Positions 7,180 through 27,948 of a stretch of DNA of 32,672 bases are shown here, one piece after another. Numbering within the stretch: position 1 is the stretch's first letter; every line of letters starts with the position of its first letter. The notes beneath the pieces were generated by a model, which did not search any database, had not been told where the DNA came from, and was given only the letters and a program-made list of their open reading frames with translations. Source of the DNA: Clostridia bacterium (lineage in GTDB: Bacteria; Bacillota; Clostridia; Oscillospirales; Acutalibacteraceae); NCBI GenBank assembly GCA_017454815.1, contig JAFTCG010000055.1, positions 1 to 32,672 on the forward strand, read 5' to 3'. Both the position numbers and the translations under genes were made by a program.

Positions 7180-8136
7180 TTACAAAACGTATTTTGCCAT
7201 CATTTTTTCAAACATATCGTCGTAAGCGTCGGATTTTTCGGCGTCAAGAGCATCCCTGCAGCAATGGGTGCCGTAATCGAAGCAGGTGTAGTAGTGATCC
7301 ACGCCGACGGCGTTGAGCATTTCATCCAGCCTGTCGCCGTTGGAGACGGGAACGAGGACGTCTTTTCCGCTCGAGCTGAAGATCGTTGCCGGCACGTCCG
7401 CAGAAACATAGCAGCAGGGAGACACAGCCCAAAGTTTTTGCTGAACGTCTTTAGTGCCGTAGTTGATGAGGTAGACGTCTTTGCCGATGAGCGCGCCGTA
7501 GAGCTTCATCATGTCTTTTCTTGAAATCGCCCAATCTTTTTGGAGATAATTCCTGTCCGTCAGATCCGTAGGGCCGCAGTTGCTTTCGACAAGCCCGATG
7601 TGGACGGGGGAGCTGTTTTTGTAAAGATAAGAATAAAGCAAAGCAAGGTGACCGCCCGCAGAATCCCCTCTGACGAGAGCGCTTTTGAGGGTGATGCCTT
7701 TTTCAAGGCAAGTTTCCCGGACGGCTTTCATGGCGTTGTCGATGTCTTCAAGGAGAGTTTTGCAGCTGAGCCTGTGATTGCCCCTCTTGTTGGCAAGGAG
7801 CCGATAGTCGATCGTTACTCCGACGATATTGTATTTCTTCGCGGCCGCCACCGCAAGCTCTTTGCCGTAGGATTTGTCGCCGCCGACCCATGCGCCGCCG
7901 TGGATGTGGAAGAAAAGGCTTGTTTCGCCGGCAGTGTTTTCCGGGATAATGATGTCAACGGTTTGCTGAGCGTCGTTTCCGTACGGGACGTTATCCATGA
8001 AAAGAAGTCCGTCCTCAACGTAGGTTTTCAGCTCAGGCATTTTCGGGGCGGGATCGTCTTTGCCGATGCTGATGCCCAAGAGAGAAAGAACAAAGGTCAC
8101 GATCCCCATGATAAAGCTTGTAATTTTGGAAAACAT
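7180..8136 (-). CDS. Membrane-anchored alpha/beta hydrolase (sixth relative of the 18-23 kb array)
   Basis: 318 residues from ATG 8136 with GAGGTGAT upstream. Residues 1-~24 are hydrophobic (SFIMGIVTFVLSLLG) with no clear cleavage site, so the protein is probably tethered outside the membrane. The hydrolase domain belongs to the hormone-sensitive-lipase/BD-FAE type: HIHGGAW oxyanion motif (78-83), GDSAGGH with S159 as nucleophile, D259 (SGKDVLVP) and H291 (GTHCCRD) as the rest of the triad. It shares the array's RLSCKTLLEDIDNAM, NCGPTDLTD and C-terminal KYV features. The DVLVPVSN region is closest to the first array member (18071). The substrate is not known. It lies 19 bases after the membrane protein gene, downstream of dnaA. 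Confidence 0.85.
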   Translation of the reverse strand: MFSKITSFIMGIVTFVLSLLGISIGKDDPAPKMPELKTYVEDGLLFMDNVPYGNDAQQTVDIIIPENTAGETSLFFHIHGGAWVGGDKSYGKELAVAAAKKYNIVGVTIDYRLLANKRGNHRLSCKTLLEDIDNAMKAVRETCLEKGITLKSALVRGDSAGGHLALLYSYLYKNSSPVHIGLVESNCGPTDLTDRNYLQKDWAISRKDMMKLYGALIGKDVYLINYGTKDVQQKLWAVSPCCYVSADVPATIFSSSGKDVLVPVSNGDRLDEMLNAVGVDHYYTCFDYGTHCCRDALDAEKSDAYDDMFEKMMAKYVL

Positions 8137-8887: not shown

Positions 8888-10182
8888 CAATCGCGTACCT
8901 CCCGGACATTTTTGATGATGTCCTCGACGGTATTCCTCAGGGCGGAGTTGCGCTCCATCTCTTTTTTGACCTTTTTGACGCCGTAGAGGACGGTGGAGTG
9001 GTCTTTACCGCCGAATTCGTCACCGATCTGGCCGGAGGAAAGGCCGGTCGTTTCCTTGATCACGTACATCGAGATCTGGCGGCACTTGGACGTGGTGGCA
9101 TCCTGACGCTGGGAGCGAATGTCATCGGGGGAAATGTTGAAAGTTCTGGCAACCTCGGCGATGATTTTTTCAACCGTGATCACAGGAGGCTGTTCGTCGT
9201 GAAGGATGTCTTTTATGGCATTCTGCGCCATTGCGATGTTGGCGGGGGAGCCGAGGTCGATGCTCGCCTTCATCCTCTTGACCGCGCCCTCAAGCTGACG
9301 GATGTTGCTCTTGAGCTTTTCGGCGATGTACATGACGACGTCGTCTTTGAGCTTTATGTTGAGCGAATCCGCCTTGCGCTCGATGATGACGATCCTGGTT
9401 TCGATGTCGGGCGGCTGGATGTCCGCGAGCAAGCCCCATTCAAACCTTGTGCGAAGACGTTCGTCGAGCCTTGCGATCTCTTTCGGGGGACGGTCGCTCG
9501 TCAGAACGATCTGTTTTCCGGCGTCGGTCAGCTCGTTGAACGTGTGGAAGAATTCTTCCTGAGTTGTTTCTTTGCCGCCGATGAACTGGATGTCGTCGAC
9601 CAAAAGGACGTCGCTGTTTCTGTATTTCTCGTGGAAGAGATCCATTTTGCTGAGTTTAAGGTGTTCGATCAGCTCGTTGGTAAAGGTTTCTCCCTTTGTC
9701 GAAACGATGTTCGCCGAGGGGTTTGACTTGCTGATCTCGTTGCAGATGGCGTTGAGCAAATGCGTTTTGCCCAGACCCGAGTGGCCGTATATGAAAAGCG
9801 GGTTGTAGGCTTTTCCGGGGTTGTTTGCGACAGCCATTGCGGCGGCGTGAGCGAACTTGTTGGAAGAACCGACAACGAAAGTTTCAAAAGTGTTGTCGCT
9901 GTAGCTGTCAACCGAAGGGACGTCCTTCTGCACGGCGGTGGATGTAACGCTCACGTCAACAGGAAAACCGAAAACCTTTTCAAAAGCGTCCTGCAGAACG
10001 CCCTTGAATTTCGCGTCGATGATCTTCTTCTTGAATTCAACGGTGGACAAGATGGCGGTGTTGTTTTCTCCGTCAAAATCAACGAACTCCAGATCCTTGA
10101 ACCAAAGGTCAAAGATCGCTTCGGAGATGTTGTTCTGACACTCCTTTTTTACATCTTCCCAAAGGGGTTCAAAAGATTGCAT
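8887..10182 (-). CDS. dnaA: Chromosomal replication initiator DnaA
   Basis: 431 residues, ATG 10182 behind CGAGG. DnaA is the AAA+ protein that opens oriC. Domain I is at 1-~85, a short linker follows to ~98, then the ATPase core with Walker A GHSGLGKT (133-140), Walker B VLLVDDIQF (192-200) and the sensor/arginine-finger region RLRTRFEWG (242-250). Domain IV has ISMYVIKETTGLSSGQIG and GGKDHSTV (391-398), the DnaA-box-reading helix. Length and motifs are those of a working DnaA. The setting is odd: the neighbours are tarJ upstream and a membrane protein plus hydrolase downstream, with no dnaN or recF and no cluster of DnaA boxes seen. It could be the sole dnaA moved away from the origin, or a paralogue. 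Confidence 0.95.
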   Translation of the reverse strand: MQSFEPLWEDVKKECQNNISEAIFDLWFKDLEFVDFDGENNTAILSTVEFKKKIIDAKFKGVLQDAFEKVFGFPVDVSVTSTAVQKDVPSVDSYSDNTFETFVVGSSNKFAHAAAMAVANNPGKAYNPLFIYGHSGLGKTHLLNAICNEISKSNPSANIVSTKGETFTNELIEHLKLSKMDLFHEKYRNSDVLLVDDIQFIGGKETTQEEFFHTFNELTDAGKQIVLTSDRPPKEIARLDERLRTRFEWGLLADIQPPDIETRIVIIERKADSLNIKLKDDVVMYIAEKLKSNIRQLEGAVKRMKASIDLGSPANIAMAQNAIKDILHDEQPPVITVEKIIAEVARTFNISPDDIRSQRQDATTSKCRQISMYVIKETTGLSSGQIGDEFGGKDHSTVLYGVKKVKKEMERNSALRNTVEDIIKNVREVRD

Positions 10183-10231
10183 AAAATAACCTCGTTTAAT
10201 CTGTATATAACAATTCAGCGGTGAATATGAT

Positions 10232-11272
10232 TCAAAATACCATTTTCATAATTCTCTTGCCGAGCGCCTGGGATTTTGCGGCGTCGTCAAACGCACGGTA
10301 ATAACCGTTGACGTTGTCGATAACGTCGATGCCTTCGACGAGACGAAGGATCCTTTCGCGAAATTCGGGGAGAGTCAGAAGTCCGACCGCCTTTTCAAAG
10401 TCACAGCGGACGCTTCTGGTCGTTCCCATGAGGGTGAGACCGTGCTCGAGCACCATTCTGGTGTTGATGGGAGCGTTGTCATTGGACACGCCGCTGAGGA
10501 TGATCTTTCCGCCCGAACAAAGCTTGTCGATCGCCTGATTGACGGCGGAAGCGGCGGCGTTGCCGCCAACGGCTTCGATCGCAACGGAGACGTTGGGCAT
10601 GGATTCGATGTTGTTGACAAAATAAGTGTCGGCGAAATCGAACTTCGCGAGCTTTTCGGGGCTCAGGCCGACAACGCTGACGTCGGCGCCGATGCCGTAT
10701 TTTGCGACGAGGGAAATGATATATCCCATGATCCCGTCGCCCCAAACTGCGATTTTCTTTTCCTTCTTTTCCCAGAGCCCTGCCCTTCTCATCGCGCAGC
10801 AACCGACGGAGATGAGTTCGCTGAAAACAGCCTCCGCGCCGATGCCGTCGGGGATCTTTATAAGATATTCAGATTCGGTGTTGATGATCTCCTTGCTGAA
10901 GCCGTCGAAGTTGCTTGAACGGAAGCGGGATTCGGGGCAATAGTTGTCAAGGAGCTTGTCGTCGTTGCGCACGCATTTGATGCATTTTGTGTTGTCGCAG
11001 TCCGCTTTCAGGCACGGGAGCATAACAACGCGCTGCCCGGGCTCAAATTCGCCGGACTTGTCCCTGATGACAACGCCCGTCGCCTCGTGGATCAGGCTCA
11101 TTGGGAATTTCTTTTTCAGAACGTTTACGTCACGGTTTCCGAGGTAATACCTGATGTCGGCTTTGCACACGGCGAGGTATTCCGGGCGGACAAGGATGCC
11201 GTCGCAGTTGAGGTCTTCGATAAAAATCTCAAACCTTTTCGGCTCGGTGATCTTATAACTTTTAACAAACAC
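10232..11272 (-). CDS. tarJ: Ribulose-5-phosphate reductase (TarJ-like zinc alcohol dehydrogenase)
   Basis: 346 residues from GTG 11272; AGAGGTG lies 7-8 bases upstream. TarJ reduces ribulose-5-phosphate to ribitol-5-phosphate with NADPH, for CDP-ribitol and ribitol teichoic-acid-type polymers. It has the medium-chain dehydrogenase layout. C36 and H62-E63 are the catalytic zinc ligands. KADIRYYLGNRD (37-48) and LIHEATG are typical of the TarJ group. A cysteine cluster near 87-112 may hold a second zinc. The Rossmann motif is VWGDGIMGYIISLVAKYG. It follows tarI by 18 bases and shares its promoter. The pairing supports the TarJ role over a general alcohol dehydrogenase. Confidence 0.85.
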   Translation of the reverse strand: MFVKSYKITEPKRFEIFIEDLNCDGILVRPEYLAVCKADIRYYLGNRDVNVLKKKFPMSLIHEATGVVIRDKSGEFEPGQRVVMLPCLKADCDNTKCIKCVRNDDKLLDNYCPESRFRSSNFDGFSKEIINTESEYLIKIPDGIGAEAVFSELISVGCCAMRRAGLWEKKEKKIAVWGDGIMGYIISLVAKYGIGADVSVVGLSPEKLAKFDFADTYFVNNIESMPNVSVAIEAVGGNAAASAVNQAIDKLCSGGKIILSGVSNDNAPINTRMVLEHGLTLMGTTRSVRCDFEKAVGLLTLPEFRERILRLVEGIDVIDNVNGYYRAFDDAAKSQALGKRIMKMVF

Positions 11273-11290
11273 TAAACAGCACCTCTTTGT

Positions 11291-11998
11291 TTATCTGTTG
11301 GCACGGATCATTGATTTGATCAAAAGAAGGTCTTCCATGGTCGTCAACTTCAGGTTTGTTCTGTCGCCGAGGGCAAGACCTATCTTTTTGCCGCCGTGGA
11401 GAACAAGTCCGCAGTCGTCGGTCATCGACGGACGCTCGTCTTCGGGGAGAGAAAAATAGCTGTCGTAGGAATCCCTGATGATTTTGTAGGTGAACGACTG
11501 GGGAGTCTGACCGCGGTAGAATTCCTTCCTGGGCGGGATCGAGTCGATGTATTCGCCGTCAAGGCTGGTGATTATTGTGTCGACAGCGGGGATGACGGTG
11601 TCGCAGGCGCCGTATTTTTTGACTTTTTCGATGTTGTCGTTGATGATCCTCTGGGAGACGAGCGGGCGCGCGGCGTCGTGGATGACAATGATATCGTCGT
11701 CGGAAACGGAATCTTTTATTGCGTCAAGCGCGTTGAGAGAGGAATGCTGTCTCGTCTTGCCTGCGTCGGTGATCCAGCGCACTTTTCTGATGTCGTATTC
11801 TTTCAGCCAGACCTTGAGATCGTTTTGCCACTCTTTGACGCAGACGACGCAGATGGCGTCGATGTTTTCGTTCACGTCAAACGATTCCAGGGTGTGGATC
11901 ACAACGGGTTTTCCGTAGATTTCCAAAAACTGTTTGGGCATATCGATGATGCCCATACGGGATCCTTTCCCGCCGGCAAGTATAACTGCAACATTCAT
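11291..11998 (-). CDS. tarI: Ribitol-5-phosphate cytidylyltransferase (TarI/IspD family)
   Basis: 235 residues from ATG 11998, with AAAGGAGAT upstream. It joins CTP and ribitol-5-phosphate to give CDP-ribitol. ILAGGKGSRMG (7-17) is the nucleotide-binding signature and DMPKQFLEI follows. VIHDAARPLV and RGQTPQSF are the conserved active-site blocks of the IspD/TarI family. The family also includes IspD of the MEP pathway; the adjacent tarJ and the MPKQFLEI form favour TarI. First gene of a two-gene unit with its own promoter. Confidence 0.85.
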   Translation of the reverse strand: MNVAVILAGGKGSRMGIIDMPKQFLEIYGKPVVIHTLESFDVNENIDAICVVCVKEWQNDLKVWLKEYDIRKVRWITDAGKTRQHSSLNALDAIKDSVSDDDIIVIHDAARPLVSQRIINDNIEKVKKYGACDTVIPAVDTIITSLDGEYIDSIPPRKEFYRGQTPQSFTYKIIRDSYDSYFSLPEDERPSMTDDCGLVLHGGKKIGLALGDRTNLKLTTMEDLLLIKSMIRANR

Positions 11999-16249: not shown

Positions 16250-17853
16250 TCGTACCATGCCACCTTTCCGTCAATTAAAACTTCTTCAAGCGTTTTGGCG
16301 CCGCTGATGTATTCGTCGCAGATCGCCGGGATCGTCATTTCGTACTGAGCCAGCATATTGACGACTTCGTCATACGCTTCGTCGTTGCCGTTCTTCTTGT
16401 TGATCATGGCGTAAAGGTAGGCCGAATCGAGCGTGAGCTGACCCTGATATGCCTTGTCGATGGCGTCCTGAGCCTTTTTCATGTCGCCCTTAATGCCATA
16501 GATGATCGCTTGTTCAAGGTATACCGGGTGACCGTAGGTGACGTCCGGCGAAGAGCCGTCCGAAGAATCGGTGTAGATATCTTTCGCAAGGCTGAGAGCT
16601 TCTTGCGAGAGAGCCAAAGCCTCGTCGTATTTTTTCTGACGGCTGAGGGCTCTGATCTTAAGTCTCCAGCTCGTAAAATCTTCAACGTCGTCCTTGAGCG
16701 CAAGGTCGCAATATTCGATACACTTTTCGTAGTCGCCCATGTAGAGGTAGGTGCTCGCGAAGCTGGAAATGTAGAAGATCTTAAGCTGAGGAGCTTCTTC
16801 TTTGAGCTTTTCGAGGTATTCGAGCTGAAGGTCGAAGCCGTCCTGCAGCATAGTGGTAACATAATACTGATAATATGTCAGATAAATGGGGTCGAGCGAT
16901 TCGTCGTCTTTCATTTTTTCAAGCTCGGCGATCGCGTTGTCGGCCTCATCTTTGGTGATCGTGCCCTGGAAAGCGGCGACAATGCTCGTCGCCCTGTTGC
17001 CGACGTCGTAAAGCCCCTTAACAGCGTCGCTGATCGGCTTTATGTCCGAATTCTGCGGTTTCTCAAAGTCGTCTTCGGAGTAGTAAGTGTCCAGAACCGT
17101 TTTGAGCGTTGAGAGATCTCCGCGTTGGAACAGGACCTTGACGTAATCCCTGATCGTGTTTTCGCCGGGGTTCACGCCGAAAAAGTCTTTGAGCGAAAGC
17201 GGCGCATAGGAGGAGTCGCCCGAAGAAGACGCAAGGAGCGTCGAGTATGCGTTGGACGCCGAGACGAGCTTTTTCTGCTCGGTGAGCGAGGCGGCCTTGC
17301 TGACTCCAAGAGAGTTGATTATCGCAACGGCGCTGAGCGCAACGGCAAAAACGAAAACAACGCAGGAGAGGATGAACGTGACAACACTTTTCCAGTTGTA
17401 GCTTGTTTCCAGGAGCTCGTTGCGGCATCTTTTGCAGTATTCGTAGGTGACGCCGTCTTTTTCCAACTTGAGCCTGCGGTGGCAGATGCTGCAAAGACGT
17501 TCGTCGTCCTCGTCGATCTCCATGACCTCGATCTGTTCGATTTTTTCTTCGCTGATGTCGGAGGATTCGTTGAGCACGAAATCCTCTGCGTCCTGGCGGG
17601 AGTCGTCAACAAGTCCGCTCCAGTCCTGAATGTCGTTCTTGAGGATCCATTCTTCGTTTTTAGCCTTCAGCTGAGAGACAAGGTCGTCGAGCTGCGACTC
17701 GATCAACGATTTGTCGTCGAGCGGTTCGCTTTCCGGAGCTGTTTCCTCCGGAACAGGCGAAGCTTCCTTCTCTTCGGCGGGAGCTTCGGGTGATTCGGTT
17801 TTTTCCGGTTCGTCGTTTCCGTCAAAAACGTTTTTGTTTTCCTGATCGTCCAC
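16246..17853 (-). CDS. Zinc-ribbon, single-pass membrane protein with TPR-like repeats
   Basis: 535 residues from GTG 17853; AGGAGGT sits 7 bases upstream. Residues 1-115 are acidic low-complexity sequence (runs of Glu, Pro, Ser). C121-x2-C124 and C140-x2-C143 form a zinc-ribbon-like knuckle. A membrane helix follows (~155-180, VVTFILSCVVFVFAVAL). From ~185 the protein is helical, with TPR-like units around 385-500 (YLYMGDYEKCIEYCDLALK, KYDEALALSQEALSLAK, GDMKKAQDAIDKAY), likely outside the cell. Such repeats bind partner proteins. Function unknown. Own promoter; coupled to the downstream membrane protein. Confidence 0.75.
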   Translation of the reverse strand: MDDQENKNVFDGNDEPEKTESPEAPAEEKEASPVPEETAPESEPLDDKSLIESQLDDLVSQLKAKNEEWILKNDIQDWSGLVDDSRQDAEDFVLNESSDISEEKIEQIEVMEIDEDDERLCSICHRRLKLEKDGVTYEYCKRCRNELLETSYNWKSVVTFILSCVVFVFAVALSAVAIINSLGVSKAASLTEQKKLVSASNAYSTLLASSSGDSSYAPLSLKDFFGVNPGENTIRDYVKVLFQRGDLSTLKTVLDTYYSEDDFEKPQNSDIKPISDAVKGLYDVGNRATSIVAAFQGTITKDEADNAIAELEKMKDDESLDPIYLTYYQYYVTTMLQDGFDLQLEYLEKLKEEAPQLKIFYISSFASTYLYMGDYEKCIEYCDLALKDDVEDFTSWRLKIRALSRQKKYDEALALSQEALSLAKDIYTDSSDGSSPDVTYGHPVYLEQAIIYGIKGDMKKAQDAIDKAYQGQLTLDSAYLYAMINKKNGNDEAYDEVVNMLAQYEMTIPAICDEYISGAKTLEEVLIDGKVAWYE

Positions 17854-17885
17854 GTAAATGACCTCCTGATCGTTTGATAAAGTAT

Positions 17886-17914
17886 ATTATACAACTTTTA
17901 TTCACCAATATCAA
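17886..17914 (-). promoter_or_regulatory. Promoter of the zinc-ribbon/TPR operon
   Basis: Minus strand TTGATA (complement of 17914-17909), 17 bases, TATAAT (complement of 17891-17886). Start near 17879, with the AGGAGGT ribosome site and GTG 17853 just downstream. Confidence 0.75.
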
Positions 17915-17983
17915 TAAGAAAATACAACTCATTTGTAAATTTTTATTCTCCGAAAAAAGATCGTATTCAATTGATTCGGTGTG

Positions 17984-18012
17984 TTGATTTTGGCTCAAGA
18001 AGGTGATATAAT
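17984..18012 (+). promoter_or_regulatory. Promoter of hydrolase array, first unit
   Basis: TTGATT (17984-17989), 17-base spacer, TATAAT (18007-18012). The leader carries a GCGGGA-CGA-TCCCGC hairpin at 18029-18043, then AAAGGAG. Confidence 0.75.
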
Positions 18013-18070
18013 GGTAATTGATCTCACGGCGGGACGATCCCGCTGATCATTGCAAAAGGAGTCGGGAAAA

Positions 18071-18943
18071 TTGAGCGGACCGAGTGATATTTTTAACAAC
18101 GAAAAAAAATATAAAATCTTCGAGGACGTGCCGTACGGCGACCATGAGCTTCAGAAGATCGACATTGTCATCCCCCGAAAGGCGCAAAAGCAGGCGGATC
18201 TCTACGTCAGGATCCACGGGGGCGCATGGATCGGCGGCGACAAGAGCGACGTCACGGAGTCGTTGGAGCCGTTCGTGAAAAAGAGGAATATGATCGGCGC
18301 GAACTTCAACTACCGTCTCCTGAAGGACGGGAACTATGACGTCGACTGCAGCTGTATCATGGACGACATCCATGCCGCGATGAAGAAAACAGTTGAGATT
18401 TGCAAAAAAGAAGGCTATGAGCTGAAGAAAGCCGTGCTCGAAGGCGAGTCGGCGGGCGCGCACGTTGCGCTGATGTATGCCTACAAATTCAAGGACGAAA
18501 GCCCCGTGGACATCGTCCTCGTTTACAGCGATTGTGGCCCGACCGACATGAACGACGACGCATATTTTAACCCCCCGATAGAGATCTCGAGGAAAGATAT
18601 GCTCATGCTCAAAAGCCTGCTCATTGGCAAAGAACTTACCTACGAAAGTATGAAGGAGCCGGAAAACGTCGATATGCTCAAAACGGTATCTCCCGTGACC
18701 TACGTTACAAAGGACGTGCCGCCGACGATCCTGAATTCGTGCGGAAAGGACGTTCTCGTTCCGGTCTCCAACGCCGTGACGCTTGAAAAGGCGCTCGAAG
18801 AAAACGGCGTCGACCATTACTACGACTGCTTTGACAATTCAAAGCATTGCCGCAGAGACAAGGCTGACAGAAAAAAGGTCAAAGTTTTTGAAAAAAAGTT
18901 TAAACAAATGACAGACAAATACGTCTGCGGAAAGGATCGATAA
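18071..18943 (+). CDS. Alpha/beta hydrolase, array member 1 (no membrane anchor)
   Basis: 290 residues from TTG 18071, 9 bases after AAAGGAG; the TTG at 18050 overlaps that ribosome site. HGGAW (49-53), GESAGAH with nucleophile S127, D227 (CGKDVLVP) and H259 (SKHCRRD) give a complete Ser-Asp-His set of the hormone-sensitive-lipase/BD-FAE type. Unlike the other members it starts directly at the hydrolase domain, so it should be cytoplasmic. The tail is basic (KYVCGKDR). The next gene starts 2 bases after its stop, so both are translated from one message. Substrate unknown; carboxyl-ester cleavage is the family's usual activity. Confidence 0.85.
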   Translation: MSGPSDIFNNEKKYKIFEDVPYGDHELQKIDIVIPRKAQKQADLYVRIHGGAWIGGDKSDVTESLEPFVKKRNMIGANFNYRLLKDGNYDVDCSCIMDDIHAAMKKTVEICKKEGYELKKAVLEGESAGAHVALMYAYKFKDESPVDIVLVYSDCGPTDMNDDAYFNPPIEISRKDMLMLKSLLIGKELTYESMKEPENVDMLKTVSPVTYVTKDVPPTILNSCGKDVLVPVSNAVTLEKALEENGVDHYYDCFDNSKHCRRDKADRKKVKVFEKKFKQMTDKYVCGKDR

Positions 18944-18945
18944 AA

Positions 18946-19884
18946 ATGTTGAAAGTACAAAGTTTTTTGCTGGCGGTCGTCATGACTGTCGTTTCGCTAT
19001 TCGGCTCGATACAGCTGAAGCTTGATTTTACGAGGAAAATCCCGAAGGGATACAAGGAGCTGACGGACGTTTCCTACGGCGAATCGCCCCAGCAGGTTTT
19101 TGACATCACGTTCCCCGAGGGGATCGGCAGCGATCTGAGCCTTTCCGTCTACATCCACGGCGGCGCATGGTGGGGCGGCGACAAGAACACGTCCTACAGC
19201 ATCCTTTACGGATATTTCAGCGACAGGAAGATGCTCGACGACATGATCTGCGCGAGAGTCAACTACAGGCTTCTTACGGAATCGGATCCGGGAATAAACT
19301 GCGAAGCCCAGCTTCAGGACATCGACAATGCGTTAAAGAAGATCGTTGAGGTCTGCAAAGAAAACGGCTATAACGTCACGAAAGCCATGCTCTGGGGCGA
19401 ATCAGCCGGCGGTCATCTTTCCACGATGTATTGCTATAAATACAAGAAAACAAGCCCGGTCAACATAGGGCTTTGCTACAGCATCTGCGGCCCGACCGAC
19501 CTGACCGACAACTGGTATTTCACGACCTGCGAGATCAAAGGCCGGGAAATGGCGACGCTCCAGAAGCTGCTCACGAGCGCCGACATCACGCTCGACAACT
19601 ACACCGGCGAAGCCGCGATCGAAGCAAGGAAGAGTGTGTCGCCCCTCTACTACGTCACGCCCGACAGCGTCCCCACGCTTTATTATTCCGGAGGGAAAGA
19701 TCCTCTTGTTCAAACATCCGACGGCGAAAAGCTTGCCGCCGCGCTCAAGAAAAACGGCGTGGATCACTACTATATGGAATTCCCGAACTCGCCGCACTGC
19801 GGAAGAGTCAAAGACGATTACGGCTATTGCAAGCTGTTCGACCTGCACCTTGAATCAATGCTTAAAAAATACGTAAAACGATAA
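18946..19884 (+). CDS. Alpha/beta hydrolase, array member 2 (membrane-anchored)
   Basis: 312 residues from ATG 18946, with GAAAGGA inside the end of member 1. The first 21 residues (KVQSFLLAVVMTVVSLFGS) form one hydrophobic helix with a single basic residue and no evident signal-peptidase site. HGGAW (71-75), GESAGGH (S153), D252 (GGKDPLV) and H284 (SPHCGR) are the oxyanion motif and triad. The conserved CGPTDLTD follows the nucleophile region. It ends in KKYVKR, the family tail. Member 3 follows after 30 bases. Confidence 0.85.
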   Translation: MLKVQSFLLAVVMTVVSLFGSIQLKLDFTRKIPKGYKELTDVSYGESPQQVFDITFPEGIGSDLSLSVYIHGGAWWGGDKNTSYSILYGYFSDRKMLDDMICARVNYRLLTESDPGINCEAQLQDIDNALKKIVEVCKENGYNVTKAMLWGESAGGHLSTMYCYKYKKTSPVNIGLCYSICGPTDLTDNWYFTTCEIKGREMATLQKLLTSADITLDNYTGEAAIEARKSVSPLYYVTPDSVPTLYYSGGKDPLVQTSDGEKLAAALKKNGVDHYYMEFPNSPHCGRVKDDYGYCKLFDLHLESMLKKYVKR

Positions 19885-19914
19885 AGAGAGAAAAACAGAA
19901 GGAAGGTAAAAACA

Positions 19915-20817
19915 ATGATCTCCAAAATAGCAAGCTTTTTTATGATGCTGACGATCTCGTTTCTTGCGGTTTTCGGCGTGGGCGTGCCGCATCCGTCGGG
20001 CTATGACGTGATGACTGACGTAGCCTACGGCGACGAGGAGGGACAGACGCTCGACCTGATCATCCCCGAAGGGCTCGGCAAAGAGCTCAGCCTTGCCGTT
20101 TTCATCCACGGCGGCGCATGGTTTGGCGGCGACAAATCCTACGAAACGGATAAGACGCAGTATATGGCGGAAAAAGGCATGATCTCCGCCAACGTAAACT
20201 ACAGGCTCCTTAGCGCTGAAAGGAAAGAGCTCACCTGCGACACCCAGCTTCAGGACATTGACAACGGCGTCAAAAAGATCGTTGAGATCTGCAGCGAAAA
20301 AGGCTATTCGATCAAAAGGGCGATCATCTGGGGCAAATCTGCCGGCGGTCACCTGTCTTTGATGTACGCTTACACTTATAAGGACAAAAGCCCGGTTGAC
20401 ATCGGACTTGTCTACAGCATCTGCGGCGCAACAGACCTGACCGACACAAACTATTTCTCCAAAACCGAGTTCACCACCGAGCAGGTGCTTCTTTTCCAGA
20501 GCGCCCTATCGGGCAAAGAAGTTACGGCGGAGAATTTCCTCGCCGAGGAAACCCAGAGCGAGCTCAAAAGAGTGTCTCCCGTGTATTGCGTGACTTCGGC
20601 GAGCGTGCCGACGATCTTCAACTCCTGCGGAAGAGATCCCCTCATCCCCCTGTCGAACGCGCAGCGCCTTGAAAAAGCTCTCAAAGCAAACGGCGTCGAC
20701 TATTACTACGACAACTTTGCGAACTCAAACCATTGCGGAAGACACGGCTTTGATTTCTTCACCTACACCGCTTTCGATTACCACCTGAACAAGATGATCG
20801 ACAAATACGTAAAATGA
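19915..20817 (+). CDS. Alpha/beta hydrolase, array member 3 (membrane-anchored)
   Basis: 300 residues from ATG 19915, with GGAAGG upstream. Hydrophobic N-terminus (SKIASFFMMLTISFLAVFG, 3-21), then a short linker and the domain. HGGAW (65-69), GKSAGGH (S142; Lys instead of Glu before the nucleophile), D241 (CGRDPLIP) and H273 (SNHCGR) complete the triad. CGATDLTD is the array's CGPTDLTD block. Ends DKYVK. Last gene of the first transcription unit; only a weak hairpin follows it, so read-through to member 4 is possible. Confidence 0.85.
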   Translation: MISKIASFFMMLTISFLAVFGVGVPHPSGYDVMTDVAYGDEEGQTLDLIIPEGLGKELSLAVFIHGGAWFGGDKSYETDKTQYMAEKGMISANVNYRLLSAERKELTCDTQLQDIDNGVKKIVEICSEKGYSIKRAIIWGKSAGGHLSLMYAYTYKDKSPVDIGLVYSICGATDLTDTNYFSKTEFTTEQVLLFQSALSGKEVTAENFLAEETQSELKRVSPVYCVTSASVPTIFNSCGRDPLIPLSNAQRLEKALKANGVDYYYDNFANSNHCGRHGFDFFTYTAFDYHLNKMIDKYVK

Positions 20818-20868
20818 CAATTGCAACAAAATGAGCTGAAAACGAGCAATATTTTTGTATAAAACCGA

Positions 20869-20897
20869 TTGACAATTTGAAAAAATAGTCATATAAT
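20869..20897 (+). promoter_or_regulatory. Consensus promoter of array member 4
   Basis: TTGACA (20869-20874), 17-base spacer, TATAAT (20892-20897): both boxes match the sigma-A consensus exactly. Predicted start near 20904. Confidence 0.85.
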
Positions 20898-20903
20898 TGG
20901 TAT

Positions 20904-20936
20904 GCTCCGGGAAGTCCCGGCTTTCGGGCGCGGAGC
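20904..20936 (+). promoter_or_regulatory. Structured leader with two alternative hairpins
   Basis: Fold 1: CCGGG (20907-20911) with CCCGG (20916-20920). Fold 2: GCTCCG (20904-20909) with CGGAGC (20931-20936), enclosing CCCG (20916-20919) with CGGG (20925-20928). The folds share bases and exclude each other. The leader starts at the predicted transcription start and ends 25 bases before the ATG of array member 4. Confidence 0.45.
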
Positions 20937-20961
20937 AGGATCTGTGAAAGAAGGTAATATT

Positions 20962-21912
20962 ATGGCAGCAATTTCAAGCATTATCGTGGCTATCATTATG
21001 GCAATACTTTCAATTTTCGGAGTCGGTGGCGGCAGTAGCGGCGGCGGAAGCAACAACGGCGGCACAACTCCCGTCAATACAACTCCGACCGGCTATGACA
21101 TTTCCGCAGACGTTTCATACGGCCCGCACGAGCAGCAGAAGCTGGACATCGCTTTTCCTCAGGGCGTCGGCACAACGCTCGGTCTCGCCGTTCATATCCA
21201 CGGCGGCGCATGGTTCGGCGGCGACAAATCTCAGAAAACCGACGAGGTCATGACCTATGCGAAAGAAAAGAATATGATCACGGCGAACGTAAACTACCGT
21301 CTTCTTCTCCTCGACAGCCCGCAGTACACCTGCCAGACGATCCTTGAAGACATCCAGGCGGCGATGAACAAGATCGCTGAAGTCTGCAGGTCGAAAGGCT
21401 ATGCGGTCAAAAAGGCGATGGTCTGGGGCGAATCCGCCGGCGGACATATCGCTCTGATGTATTCTTACACCTACAAGGACAGATGCCCCTTCACGATCGG
21501 GCTTTGCTACAGCATCTGCGGCCCGACAAACCTGACCGATGCAAAATACTATACCGACAACGACATCCCTCCGGCGCAGATGCTTCTTCTCCAGTCGCGC
21601 CTTACGGGGCAGGACATCAACGCCGGAAATCTCCTGACCGAGTCCACGGCGAATGCGCTGCTCAGGGTTTCTCCGGTAAACTACGTCAATGCGGGAACGG
21701 TTCCGACGATCTTCAATTCCTGCGGCAGAGATAAGCTCGTTCCCAAATCGAACGGCGACGACCTTGAAAAAGTTCTCAAGATGTATGGCGTCGACTACTA
21801 TTACGCCGAGTTCGCCAATTCCAACCACTGCGGCAGGAGCGACCTCGACTATGCAACGTACACAGCCCTCGACAACAAGCTCGACCAGATGATCAACAAA
21901 TATGTAAAATAA
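20962..21912 (+). CDS. Alpha/beta hydrolase, array member 4 (membrane-anchored, Gly/Ser linker)
   Basis: 316 residues from ATG 20962, 6-8 bases after AAGAAGGT. The upstream ATG at 20902 lies at or before the predicted transcription start. N-terminal hydrophobic helix (2-20, ISSIIVAIIMAILSIFG) without any charged residue, then a Gly/Ser/Asn linker (21-34) and TTPVNTTPTGYDIS shared with member 5. HGGAW (80-84), GESAGGH (S158), D257 (CGRDKLVP) and H289 (SNHCGR). Ends INKYVK. Own consensus promoter and terminator, so it is expressed as a single gene. Confidence 0.87.
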   Translation: MAAISSIIVAIIMAILSIFGVGGGSSGGGSNNGGTTPVNTTPTGYDISADVSYGPHEQQKLDIAFPQGVGTTLGLAVHIHGGAWFGGDKSQKTDEVMTYAKEKNMITANVNYRLLLLDSPQYTCQTILEDIQAAMNKIAEVCRSKGYAVKKAMVWGESAGGHIALMYSYTYKDRCPFTIGLCYSICGPTNLTDAKYYTDNDIPPAQMLLLQSRLTGQDINAGNLLTESTANALLRVSPVNYVNAGTVPTIFNSCGRDKLVPKSNGDDLEKVLKMYGVDYYYAEFANSNHCGRSDLDYATYTALDNKLDQMINKYVK

Positions 21913-21930
21913 TCAGAGCTTTGTTTTTTG

Positions 21931-21967
21931 TCCACTCTCTCTTGCGGGGAGTGGATTTTTTTGCGCC
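21931..21967 (+). terminator. Terminator of array member 4
   Basis: CCACTCTC pairing with the GGGGAGTGG arm (21932-21954), followed by a TTTTTTT run to 21962. Confidence 0.85.
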
Positions 21968-22032
21968 GCACGGATTTCGGAAATTATGAATAATTGACAC
22001 AAAAAACAAATATAGAATCTTCCTGCATATCA

Positions 22033-22062
22033 TTGACAAACAGGGGAACCGAGGGCTATAAT
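22033..22062 (+). promoter_or_regulatory. Promoter of array member 5
   Basis: TTGACA (22033-22038), 18-base spacer, TATAAT (22057-22062). The leader has a small GGCG-AAAA-CGCC hairpin at 22077-22088. Confidence 0.8.
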
Positions 22063-22127
22063 GAAAATAGGGAAATGGCGAAAACGCCGATGAATTTTTT
22101 TGATTTTTCCGGAAAGAGGGAATGAAC

Positions 22128-23075
22128 ATGGCAATAGCAAGTTTTATCGTATCAATCATTATGGCGATACTGTCGATCTTCGGCATCGGAGGCGGCAACA
22201 GCAGCGGCGGAAACAACGGCGGCGGAAGCACGCCCGTCAACACGACGCCCACAGGTTACGACATCTCCGTCGACGTCGAGTACGGCTCCGACGCACAGCA
22301 GAAGTTTGACCTCATGATCCCGCAGGGCATAGGCAGCAGGCTGAGCATTGCGATCTTCATCCACGGCGGCGCATGGTCTTACGGCGACAAGTCCGAGGAG
22401 ACCGAGCTGATTACGCCTTATGCGAAAGAGAAGAACATGATCTCCGCTAACATCAACTACCGTCTTGTAAAGCTTGACGACGGCTCGATCAACTGCCGGA
22501 CGATGCTCGAAGACATCAACAACGCTGTCAAAAAGATCGTCCAGGTCTGCAGCTCCAAGGGCTATCAGATCAACAAAGCCATGGTATGGGGTAAGTCTGC
22601 GGGCGCGCACCTTGCGATGATGTATTGCTACACCTATAAGGACAAGAGCCCTGTCAACATCGCCCTTTGCTACAACATCTGCGGCCCTGCGAACCTGACC
22701 GACAGCGGCTTCTTCAAGGGCAACGACATCCCGGCGTATTCAATGATGACGATTTTCAGCCGTCTTGCCGGACGCGACATCAACCTCGACAACCTTCTCA
22801 GCGCCGAAACTTCGCAGGCTTTGCTTGCGATCTCACCCATCAGCTATGTAAATGCGTCAACGGTTCCGACGATCTTTAACTACTGCGGCGAAGACAAGAA
22901 AGTTTTCAAGTCCAACGGCGACGCACTTGAAAAAGTCCTCAAGGCATACGGCGTCGACTACCACTATTCCGTATTCCCGAACTCAGGCCACTGCAACAGG
23001 AGCGCGCTTGATTATTCGGTTTACACCGCGTTTGACAACAAGCTCGATCAGATGATTAATCAGTATGTAAAATAA
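22128..23075 (+). CDS. Alpha/beta hydrolase, array member 5 (membrane-anchored, Gly/Ser linker)
   Basis: 315 residues from ATG 22128, 7 bases after GAAAGAGGG; an ATG at 22122 is too close to that site. N-terminal helix (AIASFIVSIIMAILSIFG, 2-19), Gly/Ser/Asn linker (20-35), then STPVNTTPTGYDIS as in member 4, its closest relative. HGGAW (79-83), GKSAGAH (S157), D256 (CGEDKKVF) and H288 (SGHCNR). The Asp region lacks the LVP seen in the others and is the most diverged. Ends INQYVK. Single-gene transcript with its own promoter and terminator. Confidence 0.87.
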   Translation: MAIASFIVSIIMAILSIFGIGGGNSSGGNNGGGSTPVNTTPTGYDISVDVEYGSDAQQKFDLMIPQGIGSRLSIAIFIHGGAWSYGDKSEETELITPYAKEKNMISANINYRLVKLDDGSINCRTMLEDINNAVKKIVQVCSSKGYQINKAMVWGKSAGAHLAMMYCYTYKDKSPVNIALCYNICGPANLTDSGFFKGNDIPAYSMMTIFSRLAGRDINLDNLLSAETSQALLAISPISYVNASTVPTIFNYCGEDKKVFKSNGDALEKVLKAYGVDYHYSVFPNSGHCNRSALDYSVYTAFDNKLDQMINQYVK

Positions 23076-23093
23076 GAAAACAAAAAGCAACAT

Positions 23094-23121
23094 GCACCCG
23101 CCTTTTGGCGGGCGCTTTTTT
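23094..23121 (+). terminator. Terminator of array member 5
   Basis: GCACCCGCC-TTTT-GGCGGGCGC stem with one mismatch, followed by TTTTTT (23116-23121). Confidence 0.9.
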
Positions 23122-23283
23122 AACAGTCTTCAAGAGAGAAAAACATCGTTTTCATCTGAATGCGGCTGTTCCCATCCGTTTTGCCGTTGGTGATTTTGTA
23201 AAAAAATGAGTTGTATTTGACGGGCGTTATCGGCTCCAAATGAAAAAAGATTGAAAATATTTTAAAAAAGAATGTTCCCGTGC

Positions 23284-23312
23284 TTGAATTGACCGACAAA
23301 ATAATATATAAT
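23284..23312 (+). promoter_or_regulatory. Promoter of the cysK - asnB-like - glnN unit
   Basis: TTGAAT (23284-23289), 17-base spacer, TATAAT (23307-23312), 35 bases before cysK. The rest of the 23122-23283 spacer shows no gene. Confidence 0.7.
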
Positions 23313-23346
23313 AAAATGTAATATTATTTGAAAAGGCGTTTTAGAT

Positions 23347-24291
23347 ATGATTTATGATAACATTTTGCAATCAATGGGCAACACACCGCTCATCAGGCTC
23401 AACAGGATGACCGACGGTGACAGCGCCGAGATACTTGTAAAATTTGAAGGTCTAAATGTCGGCGGCTCGATCAAAACGAGGACCGCCTATAACATGATTC
23501 TTCGCGCCAGGGAGCAGGGGCTACTCAACGAGAACACCGTCATCGTTGAACCGACGAGCGGAAACCAGGGCATAGGCCTTGCGCTGGTCGGCGCGGTTTT
23601 GGGTTATAAGGTCAAGATCATTATGCCCGATTCGGTCAGCGAGGAAAGGAGGCTTCTTGTCAACCATTACGGCGCCGAAGTTATCCTTGTCCACGACGCG
23701 GGCAACATCGGCGAATGCATCGAGCAGTGCCTGGAGCTTGCGATGAAGATGAAGCGCGAAGACGAGAACGTTTTCGTCCCCCAGCAGTTTGAAAACCCCG
23801 CCAACCCCGAAGTCCAGAGGGACGTTACGGGAATGGAGATTATAAAACAGGTCGACGGGCCGATCCACGGCTTCTGTTCCGGCATCGGAACGGGAGGAAC
23901 GATCACGGGTATCGGGCAGACCTTGAAGAAATATAACCCCGACATCACGATCTGGGCGGTCGAGCCGGAGGACGCCGCGATCCTTTCCGGCGGATCGATC
24001 GGAACCCACGTCCAGATGGGCATCGGCGACGGAGTTATCCCGAAGATCCTCGACACGGAGATATTCGACGACATCTGCATCATAAAGGATCACGAGGCGC
24101 TCCAGACGTCGAAAGACCTTGCCGCCAAAGAAGGCATAATGTGCGGCATCAGCAGCGGAACGAACGTCGCCGCCGCCATAAAGCTTGCCAAAAAGCTCGG
24201 CAAAGGCAAGACAGTCGTGACCATTTTGCCTGACACGGCGGAACGATATTTTTCAACGCCGCTGTTTGAGGCGCCGCCTTCGGCAGACTGA
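23347..24291 (+). CDS. cysK: Cysteine synthase family (O-acetylserine sulfhydrylase)
   Basis: 314 residues from ATG 23347, with AAAAGG upstream. A PLP enzyme making cysteine from O-acetylserine and sulfide. MGNTPLIRL (10-18) is the conserved start. K43 in GGSIKTR is the PLP lysine. EPTSGNQGIGLA (67-78) is the substrate loop and GTGGTITG binds the cofactor phosphate. The YFST motif near the end (YFSTPLF) is also present. The KTR in place of the usual KDR after the lysine is a little unusual. First gene of a unit with the AsnB-like protein and glnN, which suggests amino-acid or nitrogen assimilation control. Confidence 0.9.
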   Translation: MIYDNILQSMGNTPLIRLNRMTDGDSAEILVKFEGLNVGGSIKTRTAYNMILRAREQGLLNENTVIVEPTSGNQGIGLALVGAVLGYKVKIIMPDSVSEERRLLVNHYGAEVILVHDAGNIGECIEQCLELAMKMKREDENVFVPQQFENPANPEVQRDVTGMEIIKQVDGPIHGFCSGIGTGGTITGIGQTLKKYNPDITIWAVEPEDAAILSGGSIGTHVQMGIGDGVIPKILDTEIFDDICIIKDHEALQTSKDLAAKEGIMCGISSGTNVAAAIKLAKKLGKGKTVVTILPDTAERYFSTPLFEAPPSAD

Positions 24292-24317
24292 AAGATTTGC
24301 GTAAAGGATTGAGAAAG

Positions 24318-25850
24318 ATGCAAAACGATTTTTGCCTGAAAGTCAACATTATCTCTCGCGAGAAGGAGACCGAAGTTCTGAAAAACGTCAACAGCGTTTT
24401 CCAAACGGAGACGATCACGCTTGCGCTGACAGGCAACATTTTTGACAAAAGCGGGAAGGCGCTGAGCTACTCGGAGATCGTCGGGCTTTACAAGATCCAC
24501 GGCTTGAACATAACGGAGATCTTTGACGGGCTTTACAACCTTGTCGTCATCGACAGGAAAATCGAAAAAGCCTTCATCTTCCATGACCACCTTTGCGGCC
24601 AGAGCCACGTTTTTTATCATTTTGACGGAGAGGACGTTTACATTTCTTCTTCGATAAAAAATATCATAAACCATGCCGCCGAAACCGACTGGTACCTCGA
24701 CGAGGACAGCATCGGCGAATTCATCGACAAAGGCTATATCGGCGACAACAGGACGCTCGTTTACGACGTTTTCAAGGCGGCATACATGAAATATACGGAG
24801 ATCAACCTCAGAAGCGGCTACATCGCCGAGAGGGCGGCGCAGAACATCGAATACCACAAAAGAGATAACGTCACGGCGGAGAGGTACGACAGGATCTTCG
24901 ACGACGAGGTCATAAAATGCAAAAAAGGCAAATACGCCGTTGATTTCCGCGGCGATTATGATTCGACTTACATAATCCACCACGCGCGGTTGAACGACCC
25001 GCCCAGGAGGCACGTTCGCGCATACTGCTGCACCTTCAACGCGGAAAAGAAGCGCGGTACGCTCGAAAAGATCTGCGACAGCTTCAAGAACACGGATCTG
25101 ACGTTGGGCGAGATCGGAAAAGACGTGCTCAACTATCTTCCCCTGCTCGTTTTCATCACGGAGGGAACTGCGTTCGATCCGAACGCTTTCCGCGACGTTG
25201 AGATAGCGAAAGCGCTGAAAAAGGACGAGGTGACAAACCTCGTCTCAAGCGACGGAACGGGCGGACTTTTCAGCAAATATTTCTTCCTCGGCACCGGGAA
25301 AAGCACCGACAGGATTCAGCAAAAGGTTTTTTCCGCCGCCGACTCGCTCAGACACGCCGAAGCCGAAAAGGAAAGGGCGGAGAGGCTCATCAATCTCTCC
25401 GTCGACCAGAGCGGAATGATCATGAACTATTTTGACATCGCTTACCACAACCCGTACCTGATGAAAAAATTCGTCAAAACGGTTTACAAGAAAGAAAAAA
25501 CCGGTCAGCCCAGGCAGTTCCACTGCAAGACGATCGAATCCAACCTGCCCGAACAGGCGGCGGCGCTCGCCACAAAGCAGTCACCGAGGATCGACGTGCT
25601 TTCGCTTTTTGCCGGAAGCTTCAGCGCAAAAACGATTTCCGAAATAGCTTCCAACAGCTATTACAGGAAGAAGTTCGCCCGCCGGTTTACCGACAACAGG
25701 GAAAGAGCGATATATTGCCTGAGGATCATCTATGTGGAGCTTTTTCAGACGATCTTCCTGGGCAGGAACAAAAGCAAATTCCTCAACGCCGACAAGTTTA
25801 ACTACAGCCTGAAAGCGTTTTTCCCCAACTATTTTAAGAAGGAGAACTGA
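24318..25850 (+). CDS. Degenerate asparagine-synthetase-like protein
   Basis: 510 residues from ATG 24318, 9 bases after AAAGGA; the TTG at 24297 would add seven. Residues ~30-180 resemble the glutaminase half of AsnB ([41 protein letters not shown]), but the N-terminus lacks the catalytic Cys-Gly start. Residues ~185-510 resemble the synthetase half. Its ATP-binding SGGxDS loop reads RGDYDS (211-216), and the GDGGDELFGGY block reads [13 protein letters not shown] (310-322). Both active sites therefore look impaired, though the reading frame is intact and the protein is full length. It could be a regulatory or repurposed homologue. It sits between cysK (26-base gap) and glnN (1-base gap), so is translated with them. 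Confidence 0.78.
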
Positions 25851-25851
25851 C

Positions 25852-27948
25852 ATGACAAAAGTACCTGAACTTTTCGGAACGCTCGTTTTTAACGACAAAA
25901 CGATGAAAGAAAGGCTCCCGAAAGAAACTTACAAAGCACTCCACAAGACCATCGAAAACGGCAAATCCCTCGATCCCAACGTCGCAAACGTCGTGGCGAA
26001 CGCCATGAAGGACTGGGCGGTCGAAAAGGGCGTGACCCATTTCACCCATTGGTTCCAGCCGATGACAGGGATCACTGCCGAGAAGCACGACAGCTTCATC
26101 TCCCCGATCGACGACGCAAACGTCATCATGGAGTTTTCGGGCAAGGAGCTCATTAAGGGCGAGCCGGACGCTTCTTCTTTCCCGTCGGGCGGGCTGCGCG
26201 CGACTTTTGAAGCGAGGGGATATACCGCTTGGGACCCGACTTCCTATGCGTTCATCAAGGACGACACGCTTTGCATCCCGACGGCGTTTTGCTCCTACGG
26301 CGGCGAAGCTCTTGACAAAAAGACTCCCCTGCTTCGCTCCATGGAAGTCATCACAAAGCAGGCGAAAAGGATCCTCAAGCTTTTCGGCAATGAAGACGTT
26401 ACGATGGTCAAGACGACCGTCGGACCGGAGCAGGAGTATTTCCTCATCGACAAGGAATATTATGACAAACGTCCCGACCTCGTCTACACGGGCAGAACTC
26501 TCTTCGGCGCAAAACCCCCGAAGGGACAGGAACTGGAGGATCACTATTTCGGAACGATAAAACCCCGCGTCAGTGCATATATGAGAGAGCTCGACGAGGA
26601 GCTCTGGAAGCTCGGCGTGCTCGCAAAAACGGAGCACAACGAAGCCGCTCCGGCACAGCACGAGCTTGCACCGATCTATTCCACGACCAACATCGCGACC
26701 GACCACAACCAGCTGACGATGGAGATGATGAAAAAGGTCGCCTCGCGCCACGGGCTTGTCTGCCTTCTCCACGAAAAACCGTTCGAGGGCATCAACGGCA
26801 GCGGCAAACATAACAACTGGTCGCTTTCCACCAATACCGGCATGAACCTGCTTGAGCCCGGCGACACTCCCCACCAGAACGCGCAGTTTTTGATCTTCCT
26901 TTGCGCGGTGATCCAGGCCGTTGACGAATATCAGGGTATGCTCAGGGCTTCCGTCGCAGGCGCGGGGAACGACCACCGTCTGGGCGGCAACGAAGCTCCT
27001 CCCGCGATCGTCTCGATCTTCCTCGGCGAAGAGCTGACGGAGATACTTGAATCGATCGAAAAGGACGAACAGTACGACTCCAAAGAACAGTCGATCATGA
27101 AGATCGGCGTACATACAATGCCGAAATTCCCGCGCGACACGACTGACAGGAACAGGACTTCTCCTTTTGCTTTCACCGGCAACAAGTTTGAGTTCCGTAT
27201 GCTCGGCTCGGCTCATTCGATCTCCAGCCCGAACACTGTCATCAACACCGCCGTTGCGGACGTACTTTCGAGATATGCGGATTTCCTCGAAACAGCGCAG
27301 GGTGATTTCAACGAAAACCTCCACAAGCTCATCAGGAAAGCCATCAAGGAGCACAAGCGCATCATCTTCAACGGCAACGGCTATGATGCGTCATGGGTGG
27401 AGGAAGCCAAGAAGAGAGGACTTCTCAACCTCGAGACAACTCCGGACTGCGTGAAAGCGTATATCGACCCCAAAAACGTCGAGCTTTTCACAAAGCACAA
27501 GGTTTTCACGAAGACCGAGATGGACGCAAGATACGAGATATATCTTGAAAACTACAGCAAGATCGTCAACATCGAAGCGCTCACCATGCTCGACATGGCG
27601 AGGATGCAGATCCTGCCCGCCGTTATCGCCTTCTCGAAAGAGCTCGGCGACACGGTCAACACCAAAACCGCGGTCAGCAGCAAGATCAATACAACTGCCG
27701 AAGTCGAACTCCTGACGAAGATATCTTCTCTGAGCGCAAAGCTTTACAAAGACATCGAGGCGCTTCAGGCGGACGTCGACGGCGCAGCGGACATCGGCGA
27801 CGCCGAGGAACTCGCGTTCTTCTATAAGGACAACGTCCTGGCGAAGATGAACGCCCTCAGGCAGACGGCCGATAAGCTCGAAACGATGACGGACAAAAAA
27901 TTCTGGCCGTTCCCGTCGACGGGCGACATCATTTTCAGCATAAGATAA
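25852..27948 (+). CDS. glnN: Glutamine synthetase type III
   Basis: 698 residues; ATG 25852 is one base after the previous stop with AAGGAG upstream. It makes glutamine from glutamate, ammonia and ATP in the cytoplasm. The length (~700) and the start [17 protein letters not shown] are typical of GSIII, which is found in Bacteroides and many Clostridia and is much longer than [29 protein letters not shown] (metal-binding glutamates), [14 protein letters not shown] and [13 protein letters not shown] are the family blocks, and NRTSPFAF lies in the ATP site. It is probably the last gene of the unit. Confidence 0.97.

Follow-up and report, generated by a model that had tools for sequence, protein, structure and literature searches.

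BD-FAE, a characterised feruloyl/acetyl esterase, acts on xylan-type substrates, from which it frees both acetate and ferulic acid, and its gene sits in a xylan polysaccharide utilization locus (PUL); a disulfide between Cys186 and Cys242 is also reported for it (PMC8165983). In Ruminiclostridium cellulolyticum, two cytosolic enzymes, the CE20 acetyl esterase XuaJ and the feruloyl esterase XuaH, are encoded in one operon and act together (PMC11127375). In enzymes of family CE20 the SGNH domain is interrupted by an ancillary domain, and earlier work on the family found de-O-acetylases only (PMC12313940). Here, six genes for BD-FAE-family alpha/beta hydrolases, five of them in a tandem array, were analysed in a stretch of 32,672 nucleotides (the window) from a Clostridia bacterium. 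The window is contig C29 (JAFTCG010000055.1) of genome G000, a 1.7-Mb assembly with a completeness of 79.7%. The six genes, termed M1 to M6, probably encode serine carbohydrate esterases, of which the membrane-held M2 to M6 and a cytosolic M1 would de-acylate glycans, the ancestral array having been enlarged in each of two species.

The array proteins share with BD-FAE (6TKX/6XYC) the PF20434 domain, the order of the oxyanion motif, GxSxG, Asp and His, and a similar domain size. They differ from it in forming a set of tandem paralogues with a membrane module, in a genome where GH10 was not found, and in having HC-x-R after the catalytic His as well as S and C ahead of the catalytic Asp. The likeness to XuaH/XuaJ is one of description: there, a CE20 acetyl esterase and a second esterase work jointly in the cytosol of one Clostridia species, and in a sister species of G000 a CE20-like and a BD-FAE part form one protein, whereas the importer and glycosidases of the xua operon are missing from the array. 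With these two precedents (PMC8165983; PMC11127375), the statement in an earlier note on this DNA that the array is not explained by known pathways was too strong. No account of such an array, or of the N-terminal module described below, was noticed among the titles and opening lines of abstracts listed by searches of one open-access library.

The array consists of five consecutive, intact open reading frames (ORFs) on the + strand (18071-23075). All five match PF20434 (E = 7.1e-26 to 2.6e-22; 79.8-91.5 bits against a curated cut-off of 26.8) and also Abhydrolase_3 over its curated cut-off. M1 (18071..18943) is without an N-terminal hydrophobic segment; its longest ORF begins at 18050, and the best start is probably a TTG at 18071 with AGGAG upstream. 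M2 (18946..19884) begins 2 nt after M1 and M3 (19915..20817) 30 nt after M2, both with a plain hydrophobic N-terminus, while M4 (20962..21912) and M5 (22122..23075) have a hydrophobic N-terminus followed by a Gly/Ser/Asn linker. For M4, ATG 20962 appears a better start than ATG 20902, because the latter falls about at the expected transcription start. A dispersed sixth paralogue with the N-terminal module, M6 (7180..8136, - strand), scored 77.4 bits against PF20434 in the genome search, again over the cut-off. Domain identity is 41-62% among M1-M5 and 39-46% between these and M6. The six show no variation in HGGAW, GxSAGxH, Asp or His, and the alignment places Ser, Asp and His at the same positions in 10/10 proteins when four relatives from the sister species are added. 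Loss of catalysis is therefore unlikely in the array enzymes, given their invariant triad residues. The ORFs, the PF20434 matches and the alignment bear out what the earlier note had read from the DNA, namely five consecutive paralogues with these motifs in matching places and graded N-termini; its set of five is right for the tandem genes and overlooked M6.

A search of 98 related genomes with M3 at E ≤ 1e-40 gave matches in two only, G000 itself and RGIG397 (G005), a metagenome-assembled Clostridia genome from dairy cattle colon that belongs to the same genus. All four G005 matches sit in the array of that genome (contigs C63 and C99; JAFOEP010000081 and JAFOEP010000113). There, two anchored paralogues are followed by cysK, an Acyl_transf_3 gene, an asparagine-synthase-like gene and a type III glutamine synthetase gene, the cysK and glutamine synthetase genes being recognised by eye. 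The order in the window is identical except for Acyl_transf_3, with cysK (23347..24291, +; TIGR01139 over cut-off), a divergent asparagine-synthase-like gene (24297..25850, +; Pfam matches weak) and the type III glutamine synthetase gene (25852..27948, +) after M5. Contig C99 encodes a 1021-aa fusion, SASA first and BD-FAE second, and then another anchored paralogue. The last 131 bases printed for the far end of C99 recur at the end of C63, so that the G005 array in all likelihood runs on from one contig to the other and has four members, the fusion being the first. The earlier note had asked whether the homologues are single-copy housekeeping esterases and whether the array is syntenic and variable in copy number. 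It occupies the same place in G005, most likely with four members against five, and the homologues are multi-copy. In profile searches of 60 genomes from this bacterial family (seven of the genus, G000 included, and 53 others), 21 BD-FAE places were found in G000 (20 over cut-off) and 10 in G005, whereas the rest of the genus had 4, 2, 3, 3 and 1 and none of the remaining 53 genomes had more than 10; single-copy housekeeping esterases are ruled out by these numbers.

A phylogenetic tree was generated from 63 BD-FAE domains. The underlying alignment had 66 rows, 10 from the array clade and 56 from other BD-FAE domains, and three duplicates among the 56 (L052, L105 and L108) were omitted from the tree. 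The six window proteins and the four from G005 form one clade (support 99/99, branch 0.89). Within it, M1 groups with the fusion and M6 as (M1,(fusion,M6)) with support 92/83, and the anchored G005 paralogues G5a, G5b and G5c fall into (G5a,(M2,M3)), 85/89, and ((G5b,G5c),(M4,M5)), 87/75, the pairs G5b/G5c and M4/M5 each having 100/97. The tree is thus concordant with the gene order at the first, middle and end positions. On this tree and gene order, the simplest reading, with moderate support in the middle, would be an array of at least three genes before the split of the species and later duplications in each. Nonsynonymous divergence (dN) was below synonymous divergence (dS) in all nine pairs listed, dS being saturated in three (dN and dS were 0.27 and 1.37 for M4/M5, 0.23 and 0.82 for G5b/G5c). 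A recent tandem duplication of the whole array is excluded by the 41-62% domain identity and by dS of at least 0.8 or saturated in the nine pairs; recent duplication is accepted for the pairs M4/M5 and G5b/G5c only.

The clade is also set apart by residues beside the triad. A Cys next to the catalytic His on its C-terminal side and an Arg two residues further on (HCxR) were each present in 10/10 clade members and 0/56 other BD-FAE domains, as was a Met near the C-terminal end. A Cys at column 184, between the oxyanion and nucleophile motifs, was found in 10/10 against 2/56. Ahead of the catalytic Asp the clade has S (9/10) and C (8/10), neither seen in the 56 others, where H (47/56) and G (53/56) prevail. 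Among 123 distinct BD-FAE-like ORFs with HGG and GxSAG, distinctness being judged on a 200-residue core, HCxR behind the nucleophile was found in exactly the ten clade members, a count that does not describe a random sample because the loci were gathered by similarity, in a contig scan limited to the top 80 out of 370 encoding stretches. Columns 184, 228 and 364 are Cys in all ten. A conserved disulfide was considered, and no Cys pair could be assigned with confidence because other Cys columns vary: in place of the Cys of 'SCG', M2 has G and M6 has S, and in a further column G5b and G5c have Tyr.

A function for the set is suggested by SASA domains linked to BD-FAE. M1 and the BD-FAE part of the G005 fusion share 52% identity over 280 aa, and no signal peptide was seen by eye in the 1021-aa protein. 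The best solved match of the SASA part of the fusion is 9h4u, 'Carbohydrate esterase FI8' (7e-46), which, judging by its name, is probably Fl8CE20_II of PMC12313940. Query residues 16-248 align with 24-235 and 236-494 with 388-634 of 9h4u, and since about 150 residues in the middle of the 9h4u chain, where CE20 enzymes have the inserted ancillary domain, are without counterpart, the partner is classed as a CE20-like SASA domain and no further. Apart from the array, on contig C22 of G000 (L120, 1957-6209), Acyl_transf_3, BD-FAE and SASA genes form a run of three with about 15 nt between the BD-FAE and SASA genes, and this SASA protein shares 37% identity with the fusion over 714 aa. SASA is rare in both genomes, with three matches in G000 and four matches in three frames in G005. 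Each of two further BD-FAE genes in G000 has GH38 nearby, in one case directly beside it and in the other beyond a GDSL-type gene. De-acylation of glycans is the best reading because of the fusion, the BD-FAE/SASA pair on C22 and the published XuaH/XuaJ pair. Together with the activity of BD-FAE, the record of CE20 and the GH38 neighbours, these make glycan de-acylation likely and acetyl the most likely acyl group. The suggestion of glycan deacylation in the earlier note thereby gains support from the fusion and from the pair in the array's own genome.

The N-terminal module of M2-M6 comprises about 20 hydrophobic residues with 0-1 basic residues among the first six and an LFG-type end; no AXA site was seen by eye in these N-termini. 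With approximate ends, it spans 18946..19014 in M2, 19915..19983 in M3, 20962..21027 in M4 and 22122..22190 in M5 (all +), and 8068..8136 (-) in M6. A profile of the module (A2), built from 19 such N-termini, found 23 places in 9/60 family genomes at E ≤ 1e-4, five of them in G000. Of the 18 carriers outside G000, 12 belong to BD-FAE and two to GH16, and the remainder are a GH78 rhamnosidase, an alkaline phosphatase, a lipase and a chagasin-like protein, with some of the BD-FAE and the chagasin-like protein judged by eye and one BD-FAE ending at a contig edge after 64 residues. Within the seven genus genomes the module was found in 21 places at E ≤ 1e-4. Of the 17 that were read, 11 are BD-FAE proteins from the array or elsewhere, two are lipases (one of them recognised by eye), one is an S8 subtilase and three are proteins without a Pfam match (L116, and L110 and L115, both scanned in part). 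Two GH18 proteins of other Clostridia loci carry it as well (local E 1.6e-5 and 0.0012). Mere hydrophobicity was rejected as an explanation, as a column-permuted profile found 0/60 genomes against 9/60 for the true one; the control covers composition only, with no true relatives or positive control for the permuted profile and a few rows that lost their Met. Export of M2-M6 is supported by the identifiable carriers, all of types whose usual place of action is outside the cytoplasm, and the earlier picture of graded, esterase-like surface enzymes agrees with this module, the family matches and the aligned triad. The chagasin-like carrier (L138, G020:C157) is a small protein encoded by a - strand ORF of 152 aa.

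We propose that the six enzymes strip O-linked acyl groups from glycans, acetyl most probably and feruloyl possibly. M2-M6 would be exported and held in the membrane through the shared module, whose orientation there is predicted, with M4 and M5 extended on a flexible Gly/Ser/Asn arm, and would de-acylate glycan pieces outside the cytoplasm. M1, without the module and presumably cytosolic, may complete the de-acylation of imported oligosaccharides, and in G005 its position would be taken by the single SASA (CE20-like)-BD-FAE polypeptide. The set would derive from an array in the ancestor of both species, enlarged by tandem duplication in each. A bolder combination is tentative and in our judgement rather doubtful: that the module (about 20-24 hydrophobic residues, few or none basic, no AXA, usually LFG-ended) is an undescribed export-and-retention signal for many hydrolases and, jointly, that the array is a two-compartment de-acylation relay in which HC-x-R and SCG-x-D give a specificity undescribed for the BD-FAE family.

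Several observations weigh against glycan de-acylation. The genome is incomplete, the BD-FAE of C22 is not part of the array clade and has a long branch (2.42), and the fusion and the acyltransferase of the array locus were each seen in one relative only. Neither a transporter nor a glycoside hydrolase directly adjoins the array, no xylanase was found among the array neighbours scanned, and GH10 was found in neither G000 nor G005, in searches that did not extend to GH11, GH43 and others. NanE (ManNAc-6-P epimerase) was likewise found in 0/2 of these genomes, against 8/14 control genomes, so xylan and sialic acid are unsupported as diet. The specificity of BD-FAE may not transfer to the array because the residues beside the triad differ from those of the 56 other domains. 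Profile searches of solved structures favour the proposal in so far as BD-FAE (6tkx, 6xyc) and the GH43-CE protein 6mly were among 29 sequences at E ≤ 1e-5, but the top hits were other esterases, 4n5h with the six-sequence profile and 5ao9 with the 55-sequence profile. The latter matches would fit general carboxylesterases or lipases that act in scavenging or detoxification and have no glycan role, as would hormone-sensitive-lipase-type NCBIfam models, which match the array proteins with every score far under cut-off. Low substrate specificity is, moreover, frequent in carbohydrate esterase families (PMC8165983). We consider such a role quite improbable, given the SASA-domain fusion in G005, the dockerin carried by 5/5 large BD-FAE proteins scanned in the two genomes, and the lineage-specific expansion with dN below dS.

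Envelope editing, in which membrane-held esterases would undo the O-acylation placed by membrane O-acyltransferases on a teichoic-acid-like or exopolysaccharide polymer, is unlikely, if the strongest of the alternatives. It draws support from Acyl_transf_3, which, scarce as it is (four genes found in G000, two in G005), is present at the G005 array locus and also precedes the BD-FAE and SASA genes on C22; against it, no acyltransferase lies beside the array in G000. The earlier note had stated that no polysaccharide gene lies beside the array. This is true of the direct neighbours, among which there is no diet-type enzyme either, but 11291-11998, about 6 kb upstream, scores above the cut-off of the NCBIfam model for D-ribitol-5-phosphate cytidylyltransferase, and 4023-5378 encodes a sugar-transferase domain. 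Both, like the lack of a diet-type neighbour, speak for envelope editing. M6 lies about 3 kb from the cytidylyltransferase gene, a position near envelope genes that is not common to G005, since all four matches there lie in the array. A cytosolic M1 and a cytosolic SASA fusion, moreover, are misfits for an outer polymer. That the enzymes are sialate O-acetylesterases acting on host mucin glycans seems very improbable, although the fusion has a SASA domain, several solved relatives, 9ega, 7kmm and 8f9o among them, are named sialate-esterases, the sister species lives in the gut and the conserved Arg after the catalytic His might bind a carboxylate. Against it, NanE is missing from both genomes, the best solved match is the carbohydrate esterase 9h4u, and 7kmm is the xyloglucan esterase XacXaeA. 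De-acylation of glycans by serine carbohydrate esterases remains the probable function.

Three transcription units may be predicted for the array, that of M1-M3 from the spacing of the genes only. Promoter-like sites precede M1 (TTGATT-17-TATAAT, 17984..18012, 10/12 with an extended -10), M4 (TTGACA-17-TATAAT, 20869..20897, 12/12) and M5 (TTGACA-18-TATAAT, 22033..22062, 12/12), as the earlier note had held, and terminator-like stems follow M4 (21930..21956) and M5 (23097..23114); all are on the + strand and are consensus matches only. On both strands of 17850-23400, 15 promoter-like sites of at least 9/12 were counted against a mean of 5.2 (sd 2.5; n = 50) in shuffled sequences, and terminator-like sites as a class numbered 13 against 7.9 (sd 2.8). 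We noticed by eye that each leader (18013-18070, 20898-20961, 22063-22121) seemingly contains a short G+C-rich hairpin that lies between promoter and start codon; of these, the scan for promoter- and terminator-like sites listed only the stem at 22076-22089.

Other tandem sets are known from the same bacterial family. Three BD-FAE genes with the N-terminal module lie on G100:C15, and two full genes and the start of a third on G014:C19; these sets differ from the array in lacking HCxR, and cysK was not seen in the short flanks examined. The G100:C15 set (L145) is followed by a type I-like glutamine synthetase gene, recognised by eye, where the window has the type III gene. In G000 itself, contig C37 (L103, 5000-20000) encodes five tandem BD-FAE proteins with the GxSAGxH nucleophile motif of the array. 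They differ in their length (751-927 aa), their signal-peptide-like starts and the type I dockerin in both proteins scanned, and fall outside the array clade. For the dockerin-bearing relatives, a search for cohesins gave three weak matches in G000 and none in G005.

Elsewhere in the window, the - strand ORF at 4023-5378 shows an odd pairing of a bacterial sugar transferase (PF02397) with an endonuclease/exonuclease/phosphatase domain (PF03372). At 8887-11998 (-), dnaA (TIGR00362 over cut-off) lies beside a dehydrogenase gene and the D-ribitol-5-phosphate cytidylyltransferase gene; dnaN was not recognised among the neighbours of dnaA, no search having been aimed at it. The asparagine-synthase-like gene directly precedes the type III glutamine synthetase gene in both species (24297-25850 in the window; L101:2983-4512 in G005).

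The array is a real, conserved and lineage-specific set in a known carbohydrate-esterase family and, as it seems, no new kind of system. Least expected were the fusion of BD-FAE with a CE20-like domain, the clade residues beside the triad and the occurrence of one module across unrelated export-type hydrolases. If only the ordinary reading holds, this would be one further lineage-specific expansion of carbohydrate esterases. If the wider proposal is true, it would show how the removal of acyl groups from glycans may be organised across the membrane in gut Clostridia with no PUL-type cluster, and ten related enzymes would be at hand for mapping specificity. The direct fusion would tie BD-FAE enzymes to CE20-like esterases, and the module would be a tag by which membrane-held hydrolases could be recognised in the sequences of uncultured Clostridia.

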